In this document: positions 27,483 through 34,045 of the stretch, piece after piece
Position numbering within the stretch: position 1 is the first letter of the stretch
Layout: every line of letters begins with the position of its first letter
Source: Synergistaceae bacterium
GTDB taxonomy: Bacteria > Synergistota > Synergistia > Synergistales > Aminobacteriaceae
Direction: 5' to 3'
DNA length: 64,000 nt
Assembly (NCBI GenBank): GCA_017540085.1
Contig: JAFYBQ010000037.1
Coordinates: 1 to 64,000, forward strand
Made by a program: the position numbers and the translations under genes
The notes under the pieces: model-generated
What the model saw: only the letters and a program-made list of their open reading frames with translations
Database searches by the model: none
Told to the model about the DNA's origin: nothing

Positions 27483-28805
27483 TCATTTCAGTATCACAGC
27501 CCCGTACAGAGCGCGCACGGCGGCTTCATAATCTTCATCGTACACTCCGATTATAATATTGAGGTCATCGCTTCCCTGCTCTATCATACGCACTTTTATT
27601 CCTGCGGCGGCTATTGCGTTGAATATCTTTGCGAATATCCCCTTCACCGTTCCCATTCCTTTGCCTACTACGGTAATCAGGGATAAATTTTTCTCAACGG
27701 TAATATTTTCAGGCTTTATAGCGTCCTTCAGTGCCTGCAAAATTTCCGCCCGTTTCAGGTCAAACAGGGGATTTTTGACGACAATGGAGAAGCGGTATAT
27801 TCCTGACATGTAATGTTCGCAGGATATATTTCTCTCGGTGAATATCCCGAAAACTTTCTGCCCGATTCCCGTGAGCCTGTTTAGGCCGAATTTCTGTATA
27901 TGGATTATTCGGTAATTTCTTTTTCCGGCAATGCAGGCGGCGACTCCTCGCCTTGAGTCCTCCGGGAGGTCTGCTGTTACTGATGTCCCCTCGTCGTCTA
28001 TGTCGTTTATGTTGCGGACTCTCAATGGGATTCCGATGTCCTGCATAAGAAGTATAACGTCCTCGTGGAAGATATTTATTCCCATGTACGTGAGCTGCTT
28101 TAGTTCCTCGTATGTTATCTGACGTATGACTTCAGGATTGTCGACTATTCCGGGATCTGCGCTGTAAATTTTCGTTGTCTCGCTCCATTTTTCGCACAGC
28201 GTAGCGTTCACGGCTCTTGCGACAATGGCGGCGGTTATGTCAGCTCCTCCGCGGGGGAATAATTTTATCGCGTTTGTTCCTGCTGACCCGTAAAAGCCGG
28301 GGATTACCGCGTGTTCAGTCTCAGCGAAAATTTTGGTGGCCGCCTCGAATGTCTTTTCACGGTCTAAAGCTCCGTCCCTGCCGAAAAATATAAAGTCAGC
28401 CGCGTCGATAAACTTCCAGCCGATATACTCAGCGAAAATTTTTGCCATGATATATTCGCCCCGGCTCACTACGTAATCATTTCCGCGCCCGAAAAATAAA
28501 TTCTTCTTCAGGTTCATGATTTCCGCGTCAATATATGCGTTTACGCCGATACCCCTTGCAATATCGCTGAACCTGTCGCGGATTTGCGTCATCATCTCGT
28601 CAAAATTCTCGCGGTTAGTATAGCGGGCATTCATGATAAATAGCATGTCGGTAACTTTCATGTCCTCGCGTGAAACAGCTCCGGGTGCTGAGACAATGAC
28701 ATACTTCCGCTCAGGCTGGGACATCACAATTTGGGCAGTCTTCTTTATCATGTCAGGAGTCGAGAATGCCGCGCTCCCGAATTTTGACACAATTACATCG
28801 CTCAT
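27483..28805 (-). CDS. Aspartokinase paralogue with altered catalytic motifs
   Basis: A 440-residue protein, colinear with the aspartokinase encoded just upstream and including two C-terminal ACT domains (~300-440). Three active-site motifs are changed. KFGGTS is KFGSAA, the phosphate loop SRGGSD is PRGGAD, and SADPR is SADPG. The ACT region is well kept (FTERNISCEHYMSGIYRFSI, IEQGSDDLNIIIGVYDEDYE). This fits a regulatory or repurposed subunit better than an active kinase. A terminator separates it from the first copy. AGGAAG precedes the ATG. Confidence 0.85.
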   Translation of the reverse strand: MSDVIVSKFGSAAFSTPDMIKKTAQIVMSQPERKYVIVSAPGAVSREDMKVTDMLFIMNARYTNRENFDEMMTQIRDRFSDIARGIGVNAYIDAEIMNLKKNLFFGRGNDYVVSRGEYIMAKIFAEYIGWKFIDAADFIFFGRDGALDREKTFEAATKIFAETEHAVIPGFYGSAGTNAIKLFPRGGADITAAIVARAVNATLCEKWSETTKIYSADPGIVDNPEVIRQITYEELKQLTYMGINIFHEDVILLMQDIGIPLRVRNINDIDDEGTSVTADLPEDSRRGVAACIAGKRNYRIIHIQKFGLNRLTGIGQKVFGIFTERNISCEHYMSGIYRFSIVVKNPLFDLKRAEILQALKDAIKPENITVEKNLSLITVVGKGMGTVKGIFAKIFNAIAAAGIKVRMIEQGSDDLNIIIGVYDEDYEAAVRALYGAVILK

Positions 28806-28872
28806 GACACTTCACTTCCTTTGCTGTGTTTCTGTGGGAAAAATCATCATAATTATAATCTCTTGAGGGCAT

Positions 28873-28899
28873 AAAAATACCCCCTATATTTCAGGGGGC
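28873..28899 (-). terminator. Intrinsic terminator between the two aspartokinase genes
   Basis: On the minus strand, CCCCCTGAAATATAGGGGG is followed by TATTTTTA. It lies 11 nt after the first aspartokinase stop, so the second copy needs read-through or its own promoter. Confidence 0.8.
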
Positions 28900-28909
28900 T
28901 TTGTGATTC

Positions 28910-30226
28910 TTACTGTATCATTGTGCTGTATAACGCCCTTATTGACTTTTCATAGTCGGAATCGTCAACGCCTATTATGATATTCAGCTCGTCAGATCCC
29001 TGATCTATCATGCGGATGTTGACTCCCGCGTCAGCAAGTGCCGTGAAAACTTTCGCCGCTGTACCCTTTGCGCTTATCATTCCCTCGCCGACAACAGCAA
29101 TCACCGCTAAATTCTTCTCGATTGTGATAAAGTCCGGGGCTAACTCGTTCTTTATCTCGCGTAGAATCTCCTCCCGTTTCGCGTCAAATGCCGAGGAGCT
29201 TACCACAACCGAAATTGTGTCAATACCTGTCGGGCAATGCTCAAAGGGTACACCGCTGCGGGCGAAAATGTATAACAGCCTCGCGCCGAATCCTGTCTGA
29301 CCGTTCATTTGTGATTTCTCGACTCTAATGCTCGTGAATCCCTTGCGCCCCGCGATTCCTGTTACGGGATTTCGCTTTACGTCATGAGGGACTGAGGCGG
29401 AAATGAGAGTCCCTGCGTCCGAGGGTGAATTTGTGTTGCGAATGTTGACGGGGATACCTGCCTTCCTCACCGGGAAAACGGCATCCTCATGGAGAACGCT
29501 CGCGCCCATGTATGACAGCTCGCGGAGTTCGGTGTACGTGATATGCTCTATCGGCTTGGGACTGTCGACTATTCGCGGGTCTGCCGACAACATGCCGGAT
29601 ACGTCCGTCCAATTCTCGTAGACATCAGCATTAACCGAACGGGCGACTATTGAGCCGGTGATGTCGCTTCCTCCGCGTGAGAATGTCTTGATTGTCCCGT
29701 CAGGAAGTGAGCCGTAAAAGCCGGGGATTACTGCGTGTTCAAGCCCCTTCAATTTTTCGCCGAGAGCGTTATATGTTCTGTCGCCGTCAAAGATTCCGGC
29801 CTCGTCAAAAAACACAGCCTCCGCCGCGTCAACAAACGGCCATCCGAGAAACTCAGCTATGATTTTCGCGTTGAGGTATTCGCCCCGGCTCGCAAGGTAA
29901 TCCGCAGGGGGATATTTCCTGAGTGCGTATTCTATCGTCTCAATTTCCTCTGATATGTCGAACGTTATACCCAAGTCCGAAATTATGTCGGAATAACGCG
30001 CCTTTATTTTCGCCAGTGTGCCGGAATACTCATCGCCCTTCGCGAACTCTGAATAGCAGCTGTAAAGCAAATCTGTAACCTTTATGTCGTCCGGGAATCT
30101 TTTGCCCGGTGCTGAAGCTACGATATATTTCCGTTCGGGATTAGCCCTGATGATGTCAGCGGCCTTGCGAATCTGTGAAGCGTCCGCAAGTGATGTGCCG
30201 CCGAATTTCGCCGTGATTACTCTCAA
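28910..30226 (-). CDS. lysC: Aspartate kinase
   Basis: A 438-residue aspartokinase with the N-terminal KFGGTSLA, the SRGEYLNAKI helix, the phosphate loop FSRGGSDITGSIV and LSADPRIVDS. Two ACT domains (~300-438) suggest feedback control by lysine or threonine. It phosphorylates aspartate, the first step to diaminopimelate, lysine, methionine and threonine. The start is TTG 30226 with AGGAGG 9 nt upstream, overlapping the stop of the deacetylase gene. It is the fifth gene of the dap operon. Confidence 0.93.
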   Translation of the reverse strand: MRVITAKFGGTSLADASQIRKAADIIRANPERKYIVASAPGKRFPDDIKVTDLLYSCYSEFAKGDEYSGTLAKIKARYSDIISDLGITFDISEEIETIEYALRKYPPADYLASRGEYLNAKIIAEFLGWPFVDAAEAVFFDEAGIFDGDRTYNALGEKLKGLEHAVIPGFYGSLPDGTIKTFSRGGSDITGSIVARSVNADVYENWTDVSGMLSADPRIVDSPKPIEHITYTELRELSYMGASVLHEDAVFPVRKAGIPVNIRNTNSPSDAGTLISASVPHDVKRNPVTGIAGRKGFTSIRVEKSQMNGQTGFGARLLYIFARSGVPFEHCPTGIDTISVVVSSSAFDAKREEILREIKNELAPDFITIEKNLAVIAVVGEGMISAKGTAAKVFTALADAGVNIRMIDQGSDELNIIIGVDDSDYEKSIRALYSTMIQ

Positions 30227-31374
30227 TTGTTGCTGCCTCCTGTCTTGTTATAGTTGTATGCTGACATTGAATGCATAGCCGAGGCCGTTATGATTGCGTC
30301 AGGCAAAGGGAGAAATTTATCGGAATGGAGCGGATATTCACACCCCGCGCCGATATGGTAGAAGCACCCTGTACGCGCAAGAATATAGCTCCCGAAATCC
30401 TCGCTGATGAAAAGCGGCTTGCTGATGATGTCGACTCTTTCACCGCCGAAAGTCTCACGCGCTGAACGTTCGCATAGGGCTGTGAGTTTGTCGTTGTCGT
30501 TGACGACTCCCACGCATGAGTCTGTAATGACACATTCAGATTTCGCGCCGAATCTCCCGGCAACGTCAGCGCAGACCGTCTCAAGCTCTCTGCACATGGC
30601 CGAACGTTTATCGAGTCCGTATGTCCGTATAATTCCGGCTAACTCTGCTTTTCCCGCGAGAATGTTATTCGCCGTCCCTGCGTGAAATTTCCCGACACTG
30701 ACGACTCCGCCCGGTATGCGTAAAATTTCCGGGACAATGTGCGAGGCCGCCTCTATGCTGTCTATGCCTTTGTCCCTCTGCGCGCCGTGAGCGGATTTGC
30801 CGATGACCGTCAATTTCCACGTAGCCGAAGCCGCGTAGAAATCCCCGTACTTTATGCCGACATGCCCCGCAGGTAATGCCGGGTCAACATGGCACCCGAA
30901 AACCGCCGACACGCCGTCAAGACATCCCGCGTCAATCATGCGTTTTGCTCCGCCGTCGCCTTCCTCGTTCGGCTGGAATATGAATGTTACAGTGCCGGGA
31001 AGCTCGTCCCTGTGAGACTGTAGAATCATTGCCGCGCCTAATGCCCCCGTGATGTGTACGTCATGGCCGCAGGCGTGCATCATTCCGGGATTCTGAGACG
31101 CGAAATCGCACCCGGTGGCCTCCGTAACGGGCAATGCGTCAATGTCCGACCTTACAGCGCAGTGTTCACCCGGCAATTTCCCGTCAACCCTCGCAATGAT
31201 TCCAGTGTTGATGGCTCGTCTGTGAGGTATTCCGGCCATGTCTAAATAGTGTTCGATTAGGTCAGCGGTGTGAAATTCATTGTCGCCGATTTCGGGAATA
31301 CGGTGAAATTCTTTGCGTATTTCCGTGAGTCTGCCCCGGAGTTTTTCCGCCTCAGAAAGAAAATTTATTCCCAT
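30223..31374 (-). CDS. M20 amidohydrolase, likely N-acetyldiaminopimelate deacetylase
   Basis: A 383-residue M20D peptidase-like hydrolase with the metal-site motifs MMHACGHDVHI, FQPNEEGDGG and GCHVDPALPAGHVG, and the dimerisation-domain segment AHGAQRDKGIDSIEAA. Start 31374 is used since GAGGAAG lies upstream and earlier codons overlap dapH. It lies between dapH and lysC, so removal of the acetyl group from N-acetyl-LL-diaminopimelate is the expected role. This is the acetylated branch used by many Firmicutes. Confidence 0.87.
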   Translation of the reverse strand: MGINFLSEAEKLRGRLTEIRKEFHRIPEIGDNEFHTADLIEHYLDMAGIPHRRAINTGIIARVDGKLPGEHCAVRSDIDALPVTEATGCDFASQNPGMMHACGHDVHITGALGAAMILQSHRDELPGTVTFIFQPNEEGDGGAKRMIDAGCLDGVSAVFGCHVDPALPAGHVGIKYGDFYAASATWKLTVIGKSAHGAQRDKGIDSIEAASHIVPEILRIPGGVVSVGKFHAGTANNILAGKAELAGIIRTYGLDKRSAMCRELETVCADVAGRFGAKSECVITDSCVGVVNDNDKLTALCERSARETFGGERVDIISKPLFISEDFGSYILARTGCFYHIGAGCEYPLHSDKFLPLPDAIITASAMHSMSAYNYNKTGGSNN

Positions 31375-31376
31375 CG

Positions 31377-32075
31377 TCAAATCTTCCTCAATGACTCCTG
31401 AAGGGCTGTTTTCTGTGTCGTACTGCTGTCCTTGTCCTTTATGACTCTCGCAGGACATCCCGCTACGACTTTTCCGGGGGGGACATCCTCAATCACGACA
31501 GCACCCGCAGCGACTACAGAGCCTTCACCGATTCTTACGCCCTCAATGACGACAGCATTAGCCCCGACAAGAACATTATCCTCAACGACTACGGGCTTTG
31601 CGCTTGCAGGCTCAATCACTCCCGCCAAGACTGCCCCCGCGCCTATGTGGCAGTTTTTGCCGACAGTGGCACGGCCTCCGAGTACGGCGTTCATGTCTAT
31701 CATTGTCCCCTCGCCGACAACAGCCCCGATATTTATCACAGCTCCCATCATGATGACGGAATTTCTGCCGATTGTCGCATTTTCGCGGATTATCGCGCCC
31801 GGCTCGATTCGTGCGGGAATGTCTTTGAGGTCAAGAAGGGGGATTGCGCTGTTCCGTGATGAGTTCTCGATGACAATATCAGCGATTGAGTCGCGGTTTG
31901 ACTCTATTACGGGCTGAAGCTCTGACCAGTCGCCGAATATGATTTTGTCGGAAGCACCGAAAATTTTTGCGTTTGTCCCGCTGAAGTCTACCGGGGATTT
32001 TTCCCGGAGATATATTTTCACGGGTGTAACTTTCTTTGCGTCTGCTATGTATCTGATTATCTCTTGAGCGTCCAT
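31377..32075 (-). CDS. dapH: Tetrahydrodipicolinate N-acetyltransferase
   Basis: A 232-residue left-handed beta-helix acyltransferase. The N-terminal ~85 residues form the DapH cap ([27 protein letters not shown]). Hexapeptide repeats then run to ~210 with the signature [20 protein letters not shown]. DapH transfers acetyl from acetyl-CoA to tetrahydrodipicolinate. It lies 4 nt after dapB and 2 nt before the deacetylase, consistent with the acetyl route to diaminopimelate. Confidence 0.94.
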
Positions 32076-32079
32076 GAGA

Positions 32080-32889
32080 TTACCCCGCTATGAAGTCCTG
32101 CATTCCGTAGAGGCCGGGAGCTTTCGTGATGAGCCATTTTGCCGCGGCTAATGCTCCGTTCGCGAACAGTGCGCGGTTCTTTGCGTCATGCCGTATCGTT
32201 ATCGTTTCGAGTCCGTTGGAGAAAATTATCTCGTGAGTCCCGACTTCTGACCCGTAGCGCAGTGAGTGAATGCCGATCTCATTCGGAGACCTTTTGCCGT
32301 TCTCGTGCCGTCCGATATTGAGAGTCATGGCCGGGTTGCCCTCCTGACCCCCCTTTTTGTGGTTACCCCCCTCCGTGAACGGTGTCCCCCCTAATTTAGA
32401 GGGGATTAAGGGGGGTCTTGCTTCCTGTAACCTTTTCGCGAGCATTAACGCCGTGCCGCTGGGAACGTCCAATTTCTGATTGTGGTGAGCCTCTATCATC
32501 TCTATGTCGCAGTCCCCGAAAAGTTTTGCGACTCTCTCGGCAATGTCAGCAACAAGAGCAACGCCCACCGACATATTCGGGGAAATGAACACGGGAATTT
32601 TCGCGGCGGCCTCGCGGATTAATGTCATCTCGTAGGGTGTCTGCCCTGTTGACGCGATGAGGACGGGCAAATTTCTTTTGACGCAGTAAGATGTTACGGC
32701 CTGAGTCGCGGCGTGATTGCTGAAGTCTATAACGCAGTCAGCTTCCCCGGCGAAGTCATCAAGCGCGTGATACTTCCCGTTCCCGGTCTGAAATGCCACG
32801 TCAACAAGTGCTGAAATATTTTCCTGCCCGGCCATGTCAGCGAGGATATGTCCCATTTTCCCCCCTGCGCCGTTAATGATAATCTTCAT
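32080..32889 (-). CDS. dapB: 4-hydroxy-tetrahydrodipicolinate reductase
   Basis: A 269-residue DapB with the nucleotide loop [25 protein letters not shown], the catalytic [18 protein letters not shown], and the C-terminal [18 protein letters not shown]. Between AKRLQEA and [14 protein letters not shown] it carries an extra ~20-25 residues ([14 protein letters not shown]) encoded by an inverted-repeat element at 32365-32416. This region is a variable surface loop in the family, so the enzyme may tolerate it. It reduces the DapA product with NAD(P)H. The stop is 4 nt from dapH. Confidence 0.93.
32365..32416. repeat. Inverted-repeat element inserted in-frame in dapB
   Basis: A 52-bp element bounded by ACCCCCCT (32365-32372) and AGGGGGGT (32409-32416). 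It holds the internal palindrome CCGTGAACGG and a TCCCCCCTAATTTAGAGGGGA hairpin. The same core occurs at 54749-54815 inside cbiG. It is read through as coding sequence ([11 protein letters not shown]). It resembles the palindromic coding-sequence repeats known from Rickettsia and other bacteria. Confidence 0.8.
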
Positions 32890-32892
32890 GGC

Positions 32893-33780
32893 CTAAATCA
32901 ACCCCTGCTCTTTCATGAGGGCAAATAATTTTTCCCGGTGAGCTTTCTCCATCGGTACAAGGGGCAGCCTCAAATAGTCCTCGCAGAATCCCATAGCATT
33001 CATTGCAGCTTTGACGGGAATCGGGTTTGTCTCACAGAAAAGCGCGTTGATTAACGGCAAGTACCTGCACTGCAATTCCGCAGCTCCCTTCACATCGCCG
33101 GCAAAAAATTTCTCGCATATCTCCATTGTCTGACGCGGCGCGGGGTTCGACAGCACGGAAATTACGCCCTGCCCGCCCATAGAAAGAATCGGCACAATCT
33201 GATCATCATTGCCCGAATAAATATCCATTCTGTTGCCGATGAGCTGGGCTGTGTGTACGATTTTGCTGATGTTGGAATTTGCTTCCTTTATGCCGTTGAT
33301 TTTCGGGTGCCACGATAATTTTTCGTAGGTCTCCGGCTCTATGTTGATTCCTGTGCGTGAAGGGACATTGTAGAGGATTACGGGCTTGCTTGAAGCGTCT
33401 GCTATTGTCTCGTACATTTTGACGAGTCCGCCCTGTGTCGTTTTGTTGTAGTAGGGAGTAACGAGAAGGAGAGCGTCCGCCCCGGCATCGCAGCAATATT
33501 TCGAGAGCTGTACGGCGTAACGGGTATCATTTGAGCCAGTCGCGGCAATCATTACGCACCTTCCCGCGATTCTTTTCACGGCGAAATCAACAACAGCTTT
33601 GTGTTCTGCGTCATCGAGGGTTGAGCCTTCTCCCGTTGTCCCGGCTATAACAAGGGCGTTGATCCCCTGTTCGCACTGCCAGTCAATGACTTTGGCGAAT
33701 GAGTCATAATCGACTCCGTTCGCGTTCATAGGGGTGATAAGTGCCGTAGCGACTCCCCTGAAAATCGGCTTGTCAGTCAT
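32893..33780 (-). CDS. dapA: 4-hydroxy-tetrahydrodipicolinate synthase
   Basis: A 295-residue class I aldolase: GVATALITPMNANGVDYDS at the N-terminus, the pyruvate-site GTTGEGSTL, the catalytic tyrosine in YNVPSRTGI, and the Schiff-base lysine in INGIKEANSN. It condenses pyruvate with aspartate semialdehyde. It is the first structural gene of the minus-strand dap operon and is preceded by a ~230-nt leader with a candidate attenuator. AAAGGA lies ~12 nt before the ATG. Confidence 0.95.
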   Translation of the reverse strand: MTDKPIFRGVATALITPMNANGVDYDSFAKVIDWQCEQGINALVIAGTTGEGSTLDDAEHKAVVDFAVKRIAGRCVMIAATGSNDTRYAVQLSKYCCDAGADALLLVTPYYNKTTQGGLVKMYETIADASSKPVILYNVPSRTGINIEPETYEKLSWHPKINGIKEANSNISKIVHTAQLIGNRMDIYSGNDDQIVPILSMGGQGVISVLSNPAPRQTMEICEKFFAGDVKGAAELQCRYLPLINALFCETNPIPVKAAMNAMGFCEDYLRLPLVPMEKAHREKLFALMKEQGLI

Positions 33781-33812
33781 AAAACAATCATCCTTTCACT
33801 AATTAATGCCAC

Positions 33813-33889
33813 AAAAAAACCGCTCACCTTAGAGAAAATGAGCGGCTGATTTTATGCGGGTATGTACAAATCTCCGTCATTCTCTAAGG
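33813..33889 (-). terminator. Leader attenuator of the dap operon (antiterminator and terminator)
   Basis: Two RNA structures compete on the minus strand. The terminator is CCGCTCA/TGAGCGG with TTTTTTT (33813-33845). The antiterminator pairs CCTTAGAGAA (33880-33889) with TTCTCTAAGG (33827-33836), the latter being the terminator loop and arm. A third pairing, CGTCATTC (33920-33927) with GAATGACG (33875-33882), plus CAAGA with TCTTG, would sequester the antiterminator strand. The leader peptide stop codon falls inside CCTTAGAGAA. This is the 1:2 / 2:3 / 3:4 geometry of translation-coupled attenuators. Confidence 0.75.
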
Positions 33890-33973
33890 CAAGACAGCAC
33901 AATTACGTTTTATCTTGAGGAATGACGCGCAGGAAGACACAAATACATTGAGGCGTGAAAAATTCTGCGACAT
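33884..33973 (-). CDS. Putative leader peptide of the dap/lysC operon (29 residues)
   Basis: A 29-codon frame begins at ATG 33973 with AAGGGAG 9 nt upstream and ends at TAG 33884-33886. It starts MSQNFSRLNV and contains FLKIKRN, so two of its codons are lysine (AAG, AAA) just where a stalled ribosome would cover the first attenuator strand. It has no expected function other than being translated. The low lysine count is a caution; stalling on another codon cannot be excluded. Confidence 0.6.
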   Translation of the reverse strand: MSQNFSRLNVFVSSCASFLKIKRNCAVLP

Positions 33974-34016
33974 GGATTTATGCTCCCTTCTGAAATTTTC
34001 GGAATATTTGCTGGAA

Positions 34017-34045
34017 ATTCTAAACGTCAAAATTTATTCTGTCAA
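34017..34045 (-). promoter_or_regulatory. Sigma70-type promoter of the dap operon
   Basis: Minus strand TTGACA (34040-34045), 17-nt spacer, TAGAAT (34017-34022). Transcription would start near 34010, ~37 nt before the leader peptide ATG and ~230 nt before dapA. Confidence 0.75.

Follow-up and report, generated by a model that had tools for sequence, protein, structure and literature searches.

A putative leader-peptide attenuator with lysine codons upstream of dapA in a genus of Synergistaceae

Lysine operons have been described under the control of the L-box, less often of the T-box. What controls the dap/lysC operon of the window, that is, the whole stretch of 64,000 nucleotides of Synergistaceae DNA analysed here? 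A sequence-only reading had proposed ribosome-coupled attenuation by lysyl-tRNA and had noted neither an L-box nor a T-box at the site. That absence holds: the dapA leader matches no Rfam model above cut-off, the lysine and T-box models are without a match there even at E<=10, and the site has neither a covariance-model match to the T-box (RF00230) nor a AGGGUGGUACCGCG block. Near its start, at 583-679, the window also carries a group II intron match (RF00029, 60.8 bits).

The leader and the operon behind it

The operon and the parts of its leader are located as follows.

32893..33780, minus strand: dapA, the first structural gene (TIGR00674, above cut-off)
27483..32889, minus strand: dapB, a dapD-type N-acetyltransferase, an amidohydrolase-family deacetylase and two aspartate kinases (NCBIfam matches)
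33813-34045, minus strand: the whole candidate attenuator element, 5' of dapA
34017..34045, minus strand: sigma-70-type promoter TTGACA-N17-TAGAAT (TTGACA 34045-34040, TAGAAT 34022-34017)
33983..33989, minus strand: Shine-Dalgarno sequence AAGGGAG of the leader frame
33884..33973, minus strand: leader peptide frame MSQNFSRLNVFVSSCASFLKIKRNCAVLP and stop, 29 codons (ATG at 33973, TAG ends at 33884)
33920..33927, minus strand: strand 1, CGTCATTC, just 5' of the Lys codons, partner of strand 2
33908..33916, minus strand: Lys-Ile-Lys control codons AAG-ATA-AAA (AAG 33916-33914, AAA 33910-33908)
33874..33889, minus strand: strand 2, CCTTAGAGAATGACGG, which contains the TAG stop, partner of strand 1 or strand 3
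33884..33886, minus strand: leader stop codon TAG, within strand 2
33853..33857, minus strand: GCATA, conserved, in the linker between strands 2 and 3
33827..33845, minus strand: strand 3, the terminator 5' arm CCGCTCA with the loop TTTTCTCTAAGG, pairing with strand 2 as antiterminator
33813..33845, minus strand: intrinsic terminator CCGCTCA-loop-TGAGCGG followed by T7, called by a terminator scan

The promoter, the 29-codon frame with its ribosome site and the three pairings described in the sequence-only reading are all present on the minus strand, accurate to the base, as are the AAG and AAA codons and the TAG stop inside strand 2. The promoter scores 11/12 and is the top promoter-like site of the region in a scan; the terminator, whose T7 run ends at 33813, precedes the start of dapA at 33780. 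The antiterminator is likewise present as it had been described, but in most relatives it is longer (GUGAAUGA-CGG : CCG-UCAUUCAC), so that the whole 5' arm of the terminator is covered. Gene junctions within the operon are short or overlapping. The deacetylase is probably an N-acetyl-DAP deacetylase, the second aspartate kinase matches aspartate kinase models but below their cut-offs, and from its gene content the operon is predicted to make DAP and lysine. The two aspartate kinase genes stand in tandem at the operon end (27483-30226), with a terminator-like hairpin between them (28899-28879).

The arrangement is very probably that of a classical ribosome-mediated transcription attenuator that senses charged tRNA-Lys ahead of dapA. 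RNA polymerase would transcribe the leader and a ribosome would translate it at once. With lysine plentiful, the ribosome would reach the stop in strand 2 and cover that strand; strand 3 would then fold into the terminator and transcription would end before dapA. With lysyl-tRNA scarce, the ribosome would wait at either Lys codon, covering strand 1, and strand 2, left free, would take strand 3 to form the antiterminator, allowing the dap/lysC operon to be read. Where no ribosome starts, 1:2 would form, followed by the terminator. We infer that lysine is the signal because the operon genes make DAP and lysine and because the Lys codons are kept.

Conservation of the leader frame and its Lys codons

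The host genus is an uncultured genus of Synergistaceae, of which the analysis covered 43 species, mostly MAGs from goat, sheep or deer rumen, reticulum or gut. We found dapA in 38 of them and the same promoter-leader-terminator layout upstream of it in 34 of these 38. The promoter is similar to that of the window in 33 of the 34 leaders, and a ribosome site of the GGGAG/GGAGG type precedes the leader ATG in relatives. The basal species G050, G052 and G053 have dapA without the element. Upstream of dapA in G051 (L039), the promoter is retained and the leader frame and terminator are deleted, as if the operon had turned constitutive.

Across the phylum, a covariance model of the element gave convincing scores in 34 of 185 genomes, all of them in this genus and at dapA. 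The element is in single copy per genome, except for a split match in G026 and a weak terminator-only match in G045. In G026 (L061), an insert of ~100 bases between strand 2 and the terminator splits the attenuator into two partial model matches; this insert appears to resemble the end of an IS200/IS605-type element. Weak matches outside the genus (G128, G137 and G166) are hairpins of high GC content with T runs, lacking a Lys leader, which we attribute to chance, and a match in G033 lies inside a protein gene and is a chance similarity as well. No similar leader was seen in the ~600 bases that precede hisG, ilvB and lysA in the genome of the window, a range that stops short of the start of the his operon.

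Leader frame and pairings are conserved jointly. Firstly, on the DapA tree of the 34 leaders, the distance from the ATG to the Lys codons changed ~17 times and that from the Lys codons to the stop ~10 times, by whole codons every time. Secondly, Lys is nearly invariant: the first Lys codon is found in 33 and the second in all 34 leaders, AAG and AAA interchange with third-base changes almost only between A and G, and the two codons underwent 1 and 0 amino-acid changes versus 6-17 in most flanking codons. The sole leader without the first Lys, L036, has a new Lys after the Arg (GIKRK) and still holds two. Thirdly, the stop is TAG, TGA or TAA among relatives and stays at strand 2. Selection for Lys is therefore seen at the codon level. 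Against the reading, only these two Lys codons are conserved, and the rest of the leader is no richer in Lys than the proteins of the window (0.045 versus 0.053). Judged by this conservation, the leader with its ribosome site is likely a short translated frame upstream of the operon, whose control codons match the amino acid that the operon genes are predicted to make. An insert of 18 bases behind the Lys motif of G042 (L051) keeps the frame, brings in two further Lys codons and two Arg codons (KIKHDKREKRYTVILP) and is able to fold on its own.

The codons next to the Lys codons are also conserved, far above codon usage: the codon between them is AUA in 32 of 34 leaders, never AUU or AUC, and AUG (Met) in two, although AUA makes up only 35% of the Ile codons in the genes of the window, and the codon after the second Lys is CGU in 31 of 34, with Arg replaced by His or Leu in two. 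Base-level conservation of AUA and CGU thus goes beyond what the sensing of lysine would require. The reading of AUA requires lysidine on tRNA-Ile2, which TilS makes from free lysine. This dependence suggests a second sensor, so that the leader would measure lysine twice, charged tRNA-Lys through the Lys codons and lysidine through AUA; the two leaders with AUG and the equally base-level conservation of the neighbouring CGU make this addition unlikely. The same codon counts could be taken to mean that the leader senses Arg or Ile, both conserved beside Lys, or general translation. We hold this to be very unlikely, in view of the Ile and Arg replacements, of a second Lys that is invariant and a first Lys replaced only once, with a compensating Lys, and of an operon that makes DAP and lysine.

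Control by the peptide itself has to be weighed against control by the codons. An arrest peptide, ...LKIKR...LP, might be held in the ribosome tunnel when a small molecule is present, as are TnaC and SpeFL, the position of the ribosome again setting the RNA fold; K-I-K-R is the stretch of the peptide with the highest conservation, and Leu-Pro-stop closes many leaders, much as TnaC has Pro just before its stop. However, the residues before K-I-K, those that would lie inside the tunnel, have changed 6-17 times, the peptide ends vary (LP, GE, CE, HA, PQ) as the RNA strand varies, and the motif of L036 is broken, yet two Lys codons are left. An arrest peptide is accordingly a highly improbable account of the leader.

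Mutually exclusive pairings and the predicted switch

The RNA of the window leader folds with z = -3.6 versus shuffled sequences, none of 200 shuffles being as good; conservation is a stronger test of the element. Within species, the 2:3 duplex has a mean of -13.8 kcal/mol versus -10.9 kcal/mol for permuted species (z = -7.8), and the same comparison gives z = -3.1 for 1:2 and z = -3.0 for 3:4, values in which kinship among species is left in. Paired changes between strand 2 and strand 3 are explicit (GAGAA:TTCTC, GTGGA:TCCAC, GCGGA:TCCGC, GAGGA:TCCTC). The compensatory changes that the proposed pairings implied in relatives were thus found, and covariation points to mutually exclusive 1:2, 2:3 and 3:4 helices, strongly for 2:3 and moderately for 1:2 and 3:4; several species have only a weak 1:2 pairing or none.

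We obtained the switch that had been predicted when a ribosome was placed on the RNA of the window species: unoccupied RNA folds into helix 1:2 together with the terminator; when the ribosome is at Lys, the antiterminator 2:3 forms and the terminator does not; when it is at the stop, the terminator is formed. Applied to the complete alignment, RNAalifold recovers the terminator stem alone, because the other pairings exclude the terminator and shift register; the multi-species ribosome placement, which took in 32 species, was therefore carried out by folding each species separately. Before strand 4 is made, 2:3 forms in 29/32 species with the ribosome at the first Lys codon and in 31/32 at the second; a ribosome at the stop yields the terminator in 32/32. 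At equilibrium with the full terminator present, 2:3 wins in only 13-17 of the 32, so that in about half of the species the order of synthesis must matter, and there the switch would work during transcription.

The linker between strands 2 and 3 contains GCAT, GCAC or GCGT in 30 of 32 cases. A helix between GCATA and the bases after the T-tract was considered and discarded, as it shows no covariation (p = 0.30); GCATA, which stands before strand 3, may serve as a pause site. The leader could also be an uncharacterised riboswitch or a binding site for a protein, its reading frame having arisen by accident, and the nucleotide-level part of the conservation (AAGATAAARCGT, GCATA) would suit such an element. 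This is extremely improbable given a frame that survives ~17 length changes, the lack of a compact conserved aptamer in the RNAalifold result and of any Rfam match above cut-off.

Ribosome-coupled attenuation by lysyl-tRNA, as first proposed, is therefore supported by covariation, frame and folding, whereas the lysine response itself we infer.

Origin of the operon and comparison with known systems

In none of 81 genomes from the family does the lysine riboswitch RF00168 exceed its cut-off. Immediately upstream of dapA, 19 genomes from nine other genera of the family carry a T-box match; most of these matches are below the Rfam cut-off, but the alignments inspected contain the AGGGUGGUACCGCG block in full, and in sister genera AAA or AAG can be read by eye in the specifier region. 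In the genus of the window, T-box matches occur in only 2 of the 43 species, against one to six in most sister genera each, which suggests a wholesale loss of T-boxes. An L-box precedes dapA in 13/13 of the nearest clostridial dapA genes, and DapA of this genus and of genus g11 groups with Clostridia, apart from the T-box-type DapA of other Synergistaceae (branch 100/100). The dap operon of the genus thus probably came from Clostridia. The most economical order of events would be the transfer of a clostridial-type dap operon, the loss of its L-box and then, once the basal lineage had branched off, the gain of the leader-peptide attenuator inside the genus, followed by one loss.

In published surveys, attenuators are given for amino acids other than lysine, which is assigned to the L-box (PMC1262725). 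Our search of the open-access literature, subscription papers being outside its scope, found no description of a lysine leader-peptide attenuator. The 'lysQ' leader of Lactococcus (PMC4833913) precedes a permease whose substrate specificity is said to be altered and was not taken as evidence for lysine sensing, and two papers containing the terms 'Lys codons' and 'leader peptide' (PMC4117421, PMC6386406) are unrelated. The kind of mechanism is known; its lysine specificity and its phylum appear to be new. If the proposal is true, ribosome stalling serves to sense lysine as well as the amino acids already known, and the range of leader-peptide attenuation grows to include Synergistota. One pathway would then offer three RNA switches for comparison, the L-box in the likely donor Clostridia, the T-box in sister genera and the leader peptide here, and since one clade has the element, its basal relatives lack it and a single species has lost it, the way in which an attenuator arises and disappears could be tested.

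Set beside known systems, the element has, as far as its sequence can tell, every testable feature of a leader-peptide attenuator, and expression of the operon is predicted to rise when tRNA-Lys charging drops. Like the trp, his, thr, leu and phe attenuators of Proteobacteria, it has a leader that appears to be translated, control codons at or beside strand 1, a stop near strand 2, a 2:3 antiterminator and a 3:4 terminator; it differs from them in its Lys codons, in its occurrence in Synergistota and in its lack of sequence similarity to them, with no Rfam leader family above cut-off. The L-box (RF00168), the regulator of this operon in Clostridia, recognises lysine itself and needs no translation; it is absent here. 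The T-box (RF00230), found before dapA in other genera of the family, also senses tRNA charging, but it binds the tRNA itself without a leader peptide and has no match in 41 of the 43 species of the genus. For Thermotogales, a Clostridium-like donor is said to have supplied the lysine operon together with its L-box (PMC3766115), in contrast to the Synergistaceae genus, where the L-box is gone. A further parallel is in bacilli, where leader-peptide His systems replace T-boxes at hisS/hisZ (Naville and Gautheret, PMC2965389): there too a leader peptide has taken over from a T-box at one and the same gene, outside Proteobacteria and Actinobacteria, but the bacillar case concerns histidine, Firmicutes and genes of the tRNA synthetase family, and the present one lysine, Synergistota and a biosynthetic operon.
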